This document shows, piece after piece, positions 29,190 to 64,000 of a stretch of 64,000 nt of DNA. Made by a program: the position numbers and the translations under genes. Source of the DNA: Kiritimatiellia bacterium (lineage in GTDB: Bacteria; Verrucomicrobiota; Kiritimatiellia; RFP12; UBA1067); the NCBI GenBank assembly GCA_017427485.1, contig JAFRSR010000037.1, positions 1 to 64,000 of the forward strand. Direction: 5' to 3'. The notes beneath the pieces were generated by a model, which ran no database searches, was not told the origin of the DNA, and was given only the letters and a program-made list of their open reading frames with translations. Each line of letters begins with the position of its first letter. The first letter of the stretch is position 1.

Positions 29190-29215
29190 GGCGCGCTCGG
29201 CGAGCGCGCCCTACC
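29190..29215 (-). repeat. REP-like palindrome with GTAG foot
   Basis: GGCGCGCTC, loop GGC, GAGCGCGCC, then CTACC. Read on the - strand it is GGTAG followed by a 9-3-9 hairpin, the layout of REP elements. Intergenic copy. Confidence 0.7.
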
Positions 29216-41476: not shown

Positions 41477-44640
<3,164 letters not shown>

Positions 44641-48841: not shown

Positions 48842-51536
48842 AAACCTTTGGCTCGATTTGCGCGGCAAGTGCCTTGTGCGCAATACGCAACGCAGAAAGA
48901 AGCGTATTGTAGGTAGTATCGTCCGATTTCGCGTTCATCGCGCCGTTTGGCTTACAGCCCTGGAAATGCGCGCGGATGTCGTAGTAGGAAGCGTTAGGGT
49001 TCGCGCCCGGCTGTGCGTGGTAGTAACGCCAGAGTTCGCGCCCCGCGTCGAGCACCGCACGGGCGGCGGGAGTGACAAGTGTTGCCATTGTGGGAATGTT
49101 GCCAGTTCCAATGTTGCCAGTTCCCAATTGGTCATTGGATTTGGCAATTGGCAACACTTTCACATTGGCAACATTCTCAAATTCCAATTCACCCTGGTAG
49201 GGCGGGCGCGCCGCGCCCGCCGCGGCGGCCAGAGGGCTGGCCGCCCTGCCGTTTATGAAGTCGTTCATGAAATGGCTCGTGAAACAATCCTTCGCCCCCA
49301 CCTCTTCCTCCGTAAACGGAATCCAGTGGTTCGCGCCGTACCGGGATTTGATAGCATTGAAATCAGAAAAAAGCGTATAGATTACGCAGTCGGAGCGAAA
49401 TGCGGCATCATCAGCCCACATGTCAAACGGGACAAGAAAGTTGTCTCTGTCATTCAGCCAATCAGCCGACACACAATGCCTAACCGCAAGATAGACACAA
49501 ACCTCAACAAGATTTTTTGAGGCAATCCAAATACCACGAGGATTCGGCAACAACGACTTACTGTTGATTATATATACGATGCTGTTGTGCTGGAAATCAT
49601 TTCCATTGATTCCATCCATGTAGCCGATTGCACCATCTTCTTTCTGGCGAAACCGAGAGATCCAGGCGTTGATGTACTGGCTTTTGCTGTACGCCGTAAG
49701 AGTCTTTGTGCCGATAAGCACTCCATCGCGGTCGTACACGTCCGCCACGGCCGAGGTGAATGGTTGCGTAGCGACGGCGCCCCCGCCGTCGTTTCCACCC
49801 GGCTTCGACGGCGAGGCGCCGTCGCTACGCAGCCGCCACACAAAGAAGCCGATGGGGAACTTGCCTTTCACATTGTCGAAAGTGTCTGCAGGAACAATAA
49901 AACAGCTCTCCAACGTACCACGAAAGGCTCGTCGAAAAGTTGCGAAAGCTGCACCTTGAAGATGCTTCGTCTTTGAGAAGTGCCCGACTATGCAACCGGA
50001 CATCTCCTTTGCTATACGCACGAGAAACTGCGCAAAAAGTTCACGCGATGCAGTTCCTAATAAGTCGGCGTATTTCTTTTGCACCTCAGTGACATTTACG
50101 CCGCGCTTCCCCTTCAAACCACCGTCAACTGAAACCTTGCTCGACACTTCCGCATAAGGTGGATTGATGTAGATGACGAGCCGCTTGCGCTTTTCTGGGT
50201 CGTCGATGATTTCCTTCAGCCCCTGCGGGAGCCTGTCGAACGAATCGTTGAGGAAGTCGAACTGGAACACGTGGCTTTCAAGGAGGTTGGCGCCGTTCCT
50301 CGCGCGTTCGAGCATCACGTCCACGTCTTGCTGATCGAGAGTGGAGACCCAGATGCGGTACTTGTTCGTGAGGCCGACCTCGAGGTTGCCCGTGCCGCCC
50401 GCGCAGTCCCACACGTAGTATTCGTCCTGCCAGTTCTCGCCCAGGACGGCGGCGATGTACTGCTGCGACTTCTCCACCCAGATCGCGGGCGTGAAGAACG
50501 ACCCCTTGCGCTCGCGCACGTCCTGCGGGACGAGCAGGTCGAGGCGGGAGACGATGAAGTCCCAGTATTCGCGCTTCGGCGGACGCTTGTAGCGCCGCCA
50601 GAACGCGGAGTAGGCGGAGAGGCCATCGGCGGCCAGAGGGCTGGCCGCCCTACCATCGTCCGGTAGGGCGGTCGCCCCGCGACCGCCGTTTGCCTTGAAC
50701 CCGAACGTGAGATTGAAGTTCAACTCGTCCTCGTTCTTCCGCTTCACCGTGTAGGGTGTAGGGGAATTCGCGTCGAACGTGATGTAGAAGTCCTCTGCGG
50801 GACGGTCATCAGCGACCTCCGGCGTGCCGTTGTCGTCCACGTTCATTTCCGCAAGGAAGAAGTCGCGGTCGTAAAGAGCGTACTTCTTCTTGAGAACGTC
50901 CCACGGCGCGTCGATGTGCGGCATCACCGAAGTGCGCCACTTCTGGTAGATGAACGTGAAGTTGTTGCGGTCGATGGGAGTTGCGAGCGCGGGGGAGCCG
51001 CCGGAGGTGAAATTACGCGCGATGAACGACTTGATCTCCGCGTCGTCCGCGCCGAACCTGAACACGACGATCTTGTCCGCCGGAACGACGCCGCGCACAG
51101 TCTCCACAGTCTTGTCGTCGACGGCGGACGGCGTCTGCGTCCAGTTGAAGTCGTTCAAGTTGAATACGGGCAAGATGTAGTGGTACTCGACAAACGCAAT
51201 CTTCTCGTTGTCAAAACAGCCGACGAACTTTGGAGGTTCGTCCGCATGGTAGGGACGCGCGTCCCGCGCGTCCGCGGCGGCGTGGGGACATGCCGCCCTA
51301 CCGATGGTGAGGATCAGCTGCGCAAGCATCCGATGAACGTCCGTCGGATGGTTCTTCGCCTCGGCCCAGAGGATCGGCGGATCGGGAACGAAGGTCATCT
51401 GCCGAGGATCGCGGCGTTTCGGCGACACGCAGAAGTCGATGTTTCCGACGATGCGGGTGCAGTCGAACCTGCCGAAGTAAACCGTGGCGACACGGTTCTT
51501 CAGTTCCTCTTCTCGGATTACGGATTGGTGGTTCAT
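48816..51536 (-). CDS. Single-chain restriction-modification enzyme (type IIG-like)
   Basis: The 906-residue protein joins a PD-(D/E)xK-type nuclease (Asp34, then Glu59-Ala-Lys61 in WAEAKNH) to a gamma-class N6-adenine methyltransferase: motif I DCAGGTGNLEVG near residue 378 and motif IV NPPY near 459. A long C-terminal target-recognition region follows. One chain doing both cutting and methylation is the type IIG/IIL plan; an Eco57I-like classification is likely. The start follows ATGGAGAACGTGCC. Four palindromic insertions (about residues 78-96, 283-303, 570-590, 762-780) lie between recognisable motifs. A 15-bp tandem repeat near 49097-49126 encodes GTGNIGTGNI. Co-directional with and 15 bp from the LEP gene. 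Confidence 0.75.
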   Translation of the reverse strand: MNHQSVIREEELKNRVATVYFGRFDCTRIVGNIDFCVSPKRRDPRQMTFVPDPPILWAEAKNHPTDVHRMLAQLILTIGRAACPHAAADARDARPYHADEPPKFVGCFDNEKIAFVEYHYILPVFNLNDFNWTQTPSAVDDKTVETVRGVVPADKIVVFRFGADDAEIKSFIARNFTSGGSPALATPIDRNNFTFIYQKWRTSVMPHIDAPWDVLKKKYALYDRDFFLAEMNVDDNGTPEVADDRPAEDFYITFDANSPTPYTVKRKNEDELNFNLTFGFKANGGRGATALPDDGRAASPLAADGLSAYSAFWRRYKRPPKREYWDFIVSRLDLLVPQDVRERKGSFFTPAIWVEKSQQYIAAVLGENWQDEYYVWDCAGGTGNLEVGLTNKYRIWVSTLDQQDVDVMLERARNGANLLESHVFQFDFLNDSFDRLPQGLKEIIDDPEKRKRLVIYINPPYAEVSSKVSVDGGLKGKRGVNVTEVQKKYADLLGTASRELFAQFLVRIAKEMSGCIVGHFSKTKHLQGAAFATFRRAFRGTLESCFIVPADTFDNVKGKFPIGFFVWRLRSDGASPSKPGGNDGGGAVATQPFTSAVADVYDRDGVLIGTKTLTAYSKSQYINAWISRFRQKEDGAIGYMDGINGNDFQHNSIVYIINSKSLLPNPRGIWIASKNLVEVCVYLAVRHCVSADWLNDRDNFLVPFDMWADDAAFRSDCVIYTLFSDFNAIKSRYGANHWIPFTEEEVGAKDCFTSHFMNDFINGRAASPLAAAAGAARPPYQGELEFENVANVKVLPIAKSNDQLGTGNIGTGNIPTMATLVTPAARAVLDAGRELWRYYHAQPGANPNASYYDIRAHFQGCKPNGAMNAKSDDTTYNTLLSALRIAHKALAAQIEPKVYDYGFLKR
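49196..49250 (+). repeat. BIME-like palindrome pair in the restriction gene (1)
   Basis: GGTAG, GGCGGGCGC-GCC-GCGCCCGCC, GC, GGCGGCCAG-AGGG-CTGGCCGCC, CTGCC: two 9-bp-stem hairpins facing each other with GGTAG/CTRCC feet. It encodes GRAASPLAAAAGAARPPYQG in the target-recognition part. Confidence 0.75.
49768..49828 (+). repeat. BIME-like palindrome pair in the restriction gene (2)
   Basis: GTAG, CGACGGCG-CCCC-CGCCGTCG, 14 nt, CGACGGCG-AGG-CGCCGTCG, CTAC: identical stems in inverted orientation with GTAG feet at both outer ends, a textbook REP/inverse-REP pair. Encodes SDGASPSKPGGNDGGGAVAT. Confidence 0.8.
50628..50687 (+). repeat. BIME-like palindrome pair in the restriction gene (3)
   Basis: GGCGGCCAG-AGGG-CTGGCCGCC, CTACC, 7 nt, GGTAG, GGCGGTCGC-CCC-GCGACCGCC. 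The feet face inwards here. Encodes GGRGATALPDDGRAASPLAA between nuclease and methyltransferase domains. Confidence 0.8.
51248..51304 (+). repeat. BIME-like palindrome pair in the restriction gene (4)
   Basis: GGTAG, GGACGCGCG-TCC-CGCGCGTCC, GC, GGCGGCGTG-GGGA-CATGCCGCC (one wobble), CTACC. Same plan as copy 1. Encodes GRAACPHAAADARDARPYHA directly after the nuclease motif. Confidence 0.8.
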
Positions 51537-61829: not shown

Positions 61830-64000
61830 ATGAAAATCAATGTCCCTTTTGCCGAGGTTTTGAAAAGCCCGATGGCCGCGTCGGCGGTTCTGGCGGGAAT
61901 GTGCTGCCTCTTGCCCGTGGGGGCGGCGGCAGACGTGGCGGACGAGACGCCGACGAGCGTCGTGCGCTGGATTTGCCCCGACGAGCCGTTTGCAGACGGC
62001 ATTGGAAAGATGCGCTACTACCGCAAGGCGTTCGAGACGCGCCCGGGACTGGTGCGGGCGACGGCGCGCTGGTGGATCGACGACAGCGGGGTCGTGTACG
62101 TGGACGGCACGCGGCTGTCGGGCGGCGCGATGGCGGTCGATACGCCGTGCGACCTGACCGCCGCGCTCAAGCAGCCGGGACGCCATATGCTGGCGGTGCA
62201 AGGGCGCAACATGGCCGGCAGCGGCGGCGTGTGCCTGCTGCTGGAGTTGGAGTATGCCGACGGGCGACACGAGAGCGTGTACACGGATGGGAGTTGGCGG
62301 TGTGCAAAGGAGTGCGGCGGCCCGCTCGGCGAGCGGGCCCTACCAGGATGGACGGCGGTGGATTTCGACGATTCGGGGTGGAAGGCCGCACGGCCATTCA
62401 CCGACGCGCTCGCGGCGCCGTGGGCGTCGCTTGCCGACATGTCGAAGCTGTTGTTGCCGGACGAGCGGAAGCGCAAGGCCGACATCTTCGCCGCGCGCAA
62501 GGTCCGCGCGGAGAAGGCGTTCGCGGCGATGGCGCGAGAGGAGAAGCCCGTCTGCAGGATCGTCTATGAAAACGGCAAGCCCTATTTCGACATCGGCGGC
62601 AGGCGGTTCGAGACCGCGTTCTACAACGCCTCGGAAAACTGGAACTGCGACAGCCCCTACCTGCGGCGGCAGACGGCGATGTTCCGCGACGCCGGTATGC
62701 ACCTTTACGGCGTCGGCGTGCGGGCGCCGGACGTGTGGCGGGAGGACGGCACGATCGACACCGGCATCGTAGAAAGAAGGATGATGGACGTCCTCTCCAT
62801 TGATTCCGAGGCGCGGTTCCTGGTCAGCGTCGCCTGCGACCGTCCCGTGAGGTGGTGGAATCGGAAGCATCCCGACGAAATGGTGGGCTACGCGACCGGT
62901 GCGCCCAACCCCATTGAGGGCAATACGATCAAGAACTTCCTCGCGCCGTCTCTCGCCTCGCTTCCCTGGCGGGGGGACGTCGCCGATTTCCTCACGCGGC
63001 TGGTCACGCGTCTCGAATCGACGCCGTTCGCGAAGCGGATCTATGCCTACCGTCCCGACTACGGCGTGTACCACGAGTGGCACTACTTCGGCATGGCGCG
63101 TAACATGCCGGACACCGGCAAGGCGATGACGGCGGCGTTCCGCCGCTGGCTCGAACGTGCGTATAAGGGCGACGTCGAGGCGCTGTGCCGCGCGTGGAAT
63201 AAGCCCGGCGTCACCTTCGCAACGGCGGAGGTTCCGTCGAAGGAGGAGCGCCTGCACACCTCCGCCGGGACGTTGCGCGACCCCGTGAAGGACCGTCCGA
63301 CGATCGACTACCTGCGTTGCCACGGCGAGCAGGTGCGCGACTGCCTCCTGGACTTCAACCGGGCCATGAAGGAGGCGTGTGGCGGCCGGGCGCTTCTCGG
63401 GAACTACTGCGGCTACTTCTTCGAGATGCCGTTCCCCGCGGAGGGGTGGCATCTGGAGAACGAGGCGATCCTTGATTCGCAGTACGTGGATTTCCAGGTC
63501 TCGCCGTTCCCCTACTGGGTCACGGCGCGCGGCGGGGGCAACGGGCAGTACGCGCGTCGGCTCCTGGAGGCGACGCGTCGGCGCGGCAAGCTCGCAATCA
63601 TGGAGGCGGACACCCGCACCACGCTGATCCGAGACGAAGGGAACCGCCACTACCTCCACGCGAAGTCGCGCGCGGACGACATCGCGCTTTTGGCGCGCGA
63701 CTTTGCTTCGACGCTCTGCTGGGGCTGCGGCCTCTGGTACTACGATTTCGGCTACGGCTGGTACGACGCGCCGGAATTCGGCGAACTCTTCGGGAAGGTG
63801 TTCCCGATCCGCCGGGAGATCACCGACTGCCGCAGCGTCTCCGAGGTGCTCGTCGTGGGCGACTACGAGAGCGTACTGCTCACGAACGCGGGCTCCTCGA
63901 AGTTCAACGACGAGCGCACATCGGGTCTTATCAACGCGCTGGGCCACGCGGGCGTGCCGTTCGATTCCGCATCGACCGTGGATCTCGCCTCGGGCAAGCT
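61830..64000 (+). CDS. Secreted glycoside hydrolase, GH42/GH5-like, partial
   Basis: The frame is open from the ATG at 61830 to the window edge (723 codons). A signal peptide is followed by a galactose-binding-like jelly roll (ATARWWIDDSGVVYVDGTRLS, HMLAVQGRNMAGSGG) and a TIM-barrel region from about residue 250 (RLHTSAGTLRDP, DFQVSPFPYW, AIMEADTRT, WGCGLWYYDFGYGWYD) in the style of GH42-type beta-galactosidases. The Glu in AIMEADTRT is a possible nucleophile. A REP-like palindrome encodes GGPLGERALPGW near residues 162-173. Exact family and C-terminal domains are outside view. Confidence 0.6.
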   Translation, partial: MKINVPFAEVLKSPMAASAVLAGMCCLLPVGAAADVADETPTSVVRWICPDEPFADGIGKMRYYRKAFETRPGLVRATARWWIDDSGVVYVDGTRLSGGAMAVDTPCDLTAALKQPGRHMLAVQGRNMAGSGGVCLLLELEYADGRHESVYTDGSWRCAKECGGPLGERALPGWTAVDFDDSGWKAARPFTDALAAPWASLADMSKLLLPDERKRKADIFAARKVRAEKAFAAMAREEKPVCRIVYENGKPYFDIGGRRFETAFYNASENWNCDSPYLRRQTAMFRDAGMHLYGVGVRAPDVWREDGTIDTGIVERRMMDVLSIDSEARFLVSVACDRPVRWWNRKHPDEMVGYATGAPNPIEGNTIKNFLAPSLASLPWRGDVADFLTRLVTRLESTPFAKRIYAYRPDYGVYHEWHYFGMARNMPDTGKAMTAAFRRWLERAYKGDVEALCRAWNKPGVTFATAEVPSKEERLHTSAGTLRDPVKDRPTIDYLRCHGEQVRDCLLDFNRAMKEACGGRALLGNYCGYFFEMPFPAEGWHLENEAILDSQYVDFQVSPFPYWVTARGGGNGQYARRLLEATRRRGKLAIMEADTRTTLIRDEGNRHYLHAKSRADDIALLARDFASTLCWGCGLWYYDFGYGWYDAPEFGELFGKVFPIRREITDCRSVSEVLVVGDYESVLLTNAGSSKFNDERTSGLINALGHAGVPFDSASTVDLASGK
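62320..62345 (-). repeat. REP-like palindrome inside the last gene
   Basis: GGCCCGCTC, loop GGC, GAGCGGGCC, then CTACC. It is the same element as 29190-29215, with base-paired compensatory changes in the stem, and it is read through in frame. Confidence 0.75.

Follow-up and report, generated by a model that had tools for sequence, protein, structure and literature searches.

Palindromic repeats that lie in frame inside protein genes have so far mostly been treated as a peculiarity of Rickettsia, whose Rickettsia palindromic elements (RPEs) are the classical case, and a 2024 review held palindrome-driven protein evolution to be merely conceivable in other prokaryotes (PMC10969869). A sequence-only reading of the DNA described here likewise took in-frame palindromes to be known chiefly from Rickettsia. 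For GTAG repeats this does not hold, as intragenic repetitive extragenic palindromes (REPs) with a GTAG foot were described in 2013, including in-frame copies in several species, most in Opitutus terrae, and two insertions in uvrA genes (PMC3733652). For the Kiritimatiellae, our literature search for palindromic repeats found no paper. Here we describe a 64,000-nt stretch of a Kiritimatiellia bacterium (the window; positions 1 to 64,000 of contig JAFRSR010000037.1, assembly GCA_017427485.1), in which a single open reading frame (ORF) of 906 aa carries five in-frame palindromic inserts: three REP pairs with a GGTAG foot, one palindrome with a GCGTAG foot, and one hairpin of 81 bp (Table 1). We consider it likely that palindromic, probably mobile repeats of several families have entered protein genes of the Kiritimatiellae at the DNA level, and that selection kept those copies that lie in loops and preserve the frame. 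What had been presented as one striking gene is, in fact, one instance of a phenomenon that extends over the genome and the order.

The sequence-only reading had listed four GTAG REP pairs in this gene, at inserts 1 to 4, and the four hairpin pairs are indeed there, in frame, with perfect stems of 8-10 bp, free of stops, and beyond chance; foot, stem, paired layout and the many copies in the genome also bear out their REP-like nature. Only three of them, however, are GGTAG REPs. Insert 2 belongs to another family, recognized by its GCGTAG foot; no second sequence of this genome fits the pattern, which the relative G023 matches about 98 times. The earlier count also overlooked insert 5, the 81-bp element that adjoins insert 1 and whose hairpin has a z of -7.4 against shuffles.

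Table 1. Positions of the inserts, their host ORF and related elements (window coordinates; L numbers are loci).
Feature	Position	Strand	Hairpins or arms	Residues	Reading or remark
Host ORF, 906 aa	48816-51536	minus			ORF list and homologues
Insert 5, 81-bp palindromic element	49095-49175	minus		788-814	NVANVKVLPIAKSNDQLGTGNIGTGNI
Insert 1, GGTAG REP pair	49196-49250		49201-49221, 49224-49245	~763-781	GRAASPLAAAAGAARPP
Insert 2, GCGTAG-foot palindrome	49762-49834		20-bp outer arms; inner hairpins 49772-49791, 49806-49824	~570-590	
Insert 3, GGTAG REP pair	50628-50687		50628-50649, 50667-50687	284-303	feet face to face
Insert 4, GGTAG REP pair	51248-51304			~78-97	GRAACPHAAADARDARPYH
Single GGTAG hairpin	42401-42427	minus			in frame in a long ORF
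Single GGTAG hairpin	62319-62344	plus			in frame in a long ORF
Single GGTAG hairpin	29190-29215				apparently intergenic
Other 81-bp element loci	L224, L228, L255, L258, L249				

The host ORF appears to encode a nuclease/N6-methyltransferase-like fusion, uncharacterised and of a family that has no name, judging from a PD-(D/E)XK-like motif (WAEAK, aa 57-61) and an N6-methyltransferase motif (NPPY, aa 458-461), both invariant across its homologues. Attempts to name the protein by sequence were unsuccessful, with no match in Pfam, NCBIfam, PADLOC or among PDB sequences, and the family is spread over many phyla (80 homologues kept; loci L027-L106). Structure comparison shows a fold of the methyltransferase part resembling LlaBIII, M.BseCI, CamA and DrdV, with a whole-chain TM-score of about 0.2 against type IIG, IIL and ISP enzymes. 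The likeness to such restriction-modification enzymes as LlaBIII and DrdV would lie in the modelled fold of the methyltransferase and target-recognition part and in the nuclease-like N-terminal motif, whereas the host differs from them in having no MmeI or Eco57I Pfam match and in its nameless family. Two paralogues reside in the same bin (L162, contig G000:C30, and L399, contig G000:C427).

Aligned with this family, the inserts are insertions relative to homologues. Insert 3, with a net gain of 21 aa, is without counterpart in every other family member shown, and the site of insert 4 is filled elsewhere only in homologues L027 and L030, by a different sequence, and is empty in L028 and L029. 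The site of insert 2 varies from empty to over 100 aa in length, and distant members have a short version of the C-terminal linker in which inserts 1 and 5 lie. REP-like peptides occur at the insert 1 linker in relatives and in paralogue L162, where the same linker holds a GGTAG hairpin, and at the site of insert 5 the 81-bp element is common to the 906-aa ORF and L028. In the AlphaFold model of the protein, which has a mean predicted local distance difference test score (pLDDT) of 78.9, values fall below 50 at aa 83-98, 285-302, 577-588 and 767-815, where the inserts lie; some insert-free stretches, such as 336-346 and 462-480, score as low. The inserts thus coincide with loops that are modelled with low confidence and are probably flexible. 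The sequence-only reading could have fallen on two points, close homologues that share the peptides without palindromic DNA or a lack of further copies in the genome; when both were looked at, homologues proved to lack the peptides and further copies to be abundant. Separately, homologues of the enzyme from Flavobacterium (L103) and a gammaproteobacterium (L095) carry insert-like peptides in loops (FPSFGGVAEGRGG and HEPSKNKALTRGHVPLLE), which may be independent in-frame repeats in other phyla.

Beyond this gene, GGTAG hairpins were counted in a 1.22-Mb sample of the genome that includes the contigs with strict pairs, and there 119 of 1517 GGTAG sites are immediately followed by a 9-bp stem with a loop of 3-5 nt, compared to about 1% for the median 4-mer. 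Strict pairs (GGTAGGG..CCCTACC), the only count made over the whole genome, number 17, with ten clearly in frame in coding ORFs, three of doubtful context and four intergenic. Hosts supported by Pfam are, among others, alanyl-tRNA synthetase, a MiaB-like radical-SAM protein, an ABC ATPase and an MFS protein. A copy was called genic on the basis of open length in each frame and codon scores, an approach that replaced an over-optimistic codon-usage hidden Markov model, which had placed the region of insert 1 as intergenic. Inserts 1, 3 and 4 have the GTAG foot and short stem-loop of GTAG REPs, as well as many dispersed copies and inverted pairs. Such repeats are expected to be mainly extragenic, which is not what 10 of 17 clearly genic pairs show; because intragenic GTAG REPs are already in the literature, this location lowers how typical the copies are, not their membership. 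Single GGTAG hairpins are also seen in the window (Table 1). In genome G046, sixteen near-identical REP pairs (L418-L433) have longer flanks in common, so that this pair seems to belong to a larger repeat.

The 81-bp element came to light when the whole enzyme was compared with relatives and its residues 781-832 matched long unrelated ORFs, and we found no description of such a coding palindrome in the literature searched. It folds into a single long hairpin (z from about -6 to -8 against shuffles), usually reads NVANVKMLPIANSNGQLGTGNIGTGNI, and lies in frame in glutamate synthase (GltB), in the large chain of carbamoyl-phosphate synthase (CarB, two sites), in MmeI-type enzymes and in a metallophosphoesterase across the order, with four copies in one MmeI-type ORF of G026. 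Its peptide is present in 24 of 115 relatives; given that a peptide search favours one frame, the search was repeated at the DNA level, giving 30-59 matches in each of eight genomes. Among copies judged genic, length minus 81 is a multiple of 3 in 23 of 25, versus 11 of 22 others (Fisher p = 0.0025). The element shares with RPEs its palindromic DNA, its in-frame occurrence in unrelated genes and a recurrent peptide. Both in the enzyme gene (49095-49250) and in an intergenic region of G026 (L434, contig G026:C4), an 81-bp element adjoins a GGTAG REP pair, which suggests composite units.

In core enzymes, orthologous loops can be compared across genomes. One loop of alanyl-tRNA synthetase is empty in G003, G006, G014 and G020, and is occupied by a GGTAG pair in the genome under study (G000), by another GTAG hairpin in G009 and by a G-rich repeat in G011. 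A linker of glutamate synthase is empty in several genomes, filled by the 81-bp element in others and by unrelated repeat-like inserts in more, and in a second linker of the same enzyme the 81-bp element is read in two different frames depending on the species, which shows insertion to be an event at the DNA level that yields the peptide as a by-product. The GltB linker in G007, G061, G013, G002, G063 and G016 holds other low-complexity, repeat-like peptides (KDARQETGDE, FPEAPENPEPPENPEPP, AKRANDPTIKRTNDPVE and PSNPQALKPSN), which may represent further coding repeat families.

Taken as a course of events, the reading we favour would begin with repeats dispersing into and between genes, and copies are present in both contexts, although active transposition is a step that we infer. 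Copies that landed in folded parts or broke the frame would then have been lost, and those in frame within flexible loops would have survived, as the filled and empty sites, the conservation of length and the low pLDDT at insert positions suggest. In different species, a tolerant loop can be refilled, whether by one family again or by another, leading to several inserts per protein, as alanyl-tRNA synthetase, glutamate synthase and the 906-aa enzyme show. The added peptides would probably act as nearly neutral spacers. Only by analogy are REP-associated tyrosine transposases (RAYTs), named in the sequence-only reading as mobilising GTAG REPs, candidates for the GGTAG family; seven Y1_Tnp (RAYT-type) matches exist in the genome, but no GGTAG REP adjoins a Y1 gene in the loci checked, and the cognate RAYT may be absent from the draft bin. 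Among the meanings offered earlier for the inserts, tolerance fits best, a target preference, to which the bias in orientation and frame could point, is possible, and domestication is without support.

We acknowledge that several observations weigh against this reading. A clean target duplication could not be defined at the insert sites, transposition being inferred rather than observed, and the net difference in length often falls short of the full element. To some extent, low pLDDT is to be expected where most alignment rows have gaps, and since gaps depress confidence by themselves, the low values are supporting evidence and not an independent test. Whether a copy is genic was judged from open frames and codon scores, and the grouping of sites was manual. 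All 16 pairs examined in G046 look intergenic, hence the genic habit varies between lineages and is not universal. Lastly, simple tolerance does not predict that genic copies favour one orientation and frame, as they do: among genic REP pairs of the most frequent type, 7 of 7 have the same orientation and reading frame, even with four frames open to them, and genic 81-bp copies are read in frame +0 at about 13 of the 17 sites grouped by hand, with none on the reverse strand.

These biases, together with the lack of stops in most of the six frames of the 81-bp element, also in copies between genes, would fit a case in which the elements had become adapted to genic life, with selection on the repeat itself making one strand and frame a stop-free, harmless linker and genic insertion a strategy, an alternative that we regard as possible but rather unlikely. 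Host filtering against Cys/Trp-rich or hydrophobic readings could, however, give the same bias, and one glutamate synthase linker uses frame +1. Moreover, the biases are affected by ascertainment, the query consensus having been derived from +0 copies, and by dependence, as the sites are partly related. An extension of this idea, in which several gene-dwelling palindromic families with an evolved harmless, stop-free frame and a preferred orientation reshape an order of Kiritimatiellae, whose core enzymes keep gaining loop segments through a protein-lengthening mobile element system independent of the RPEs, is likewise possible but rather unlikely. That the inserts are domesticated linkers, held by positive selection because they improve the enzyme, could draw on the REP-like peptides at the same C-terminal linker in several family members, but it is very improbable, and was rejected, given that sites are empty in close relatives and that one site can be filled by different families and read in different frames. 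Gene decay, or inserts that are artefacts of assembly or binning, might be suspected in a draft bin with 7% contamination, yet we give this hardly any credence and rejected it, as the 906-aa frame is open throughout, its motifs are intact at 47-70% identity to 40 homologues, and independent assemblies show the same junctions between insert and gene (L028; GltB and CarB in several genomes).

If palindromic repeats did enter these genes as DNA and persist in tolerant loops, the empty, filled and re-filled orthologous loops of core enzymes make the route from selfish repeat to protein segment directly testable, and annotators of these genomes should be aware that a variable loop can be mobile DNA. 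Compared with the REPs, bacterial interspersed mosaic elements and RAYT systems, the GGTAG family shows the same foot, hairpin and inverted pairs, in a genome with Y1_Tnp genes, and differs in that most strict pairs are inside genes, with no REP beside a Y1 gene among the loci inspected. In its behaviour the 81-bp element resembles the RPEs, as an in-frame palindrome with a recurrent peptide in unrelated genes, and differs from them in length (81 bp vs about 150 bp), in its free-living, gut-type bacterial hosts and in its coexistence with GTAG REPs; with no recorded sequence relation between the two, we liken them by behaviour and claim no membership. What we consider new is the clade itself, several repeat families existing side by side, a gene that carries five inserts, the 81-bp element, and loops of core enzymes that have been used more than once. 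A close likeness is to the intragenic GTAG REPs (PMC3733652), which also have a GTAG foot and a short hairpin, stand alone or in inverted pairs, lie in frame within genes in some of their copies, and have hit some genes twice. The present case, however, belongs to another class, the Kiritimatiellae, combines, within a single gene, three GGTAG pairs with two palindromes from other families, and allows orthologous loops to be seen empty, filled, and filled by other families.
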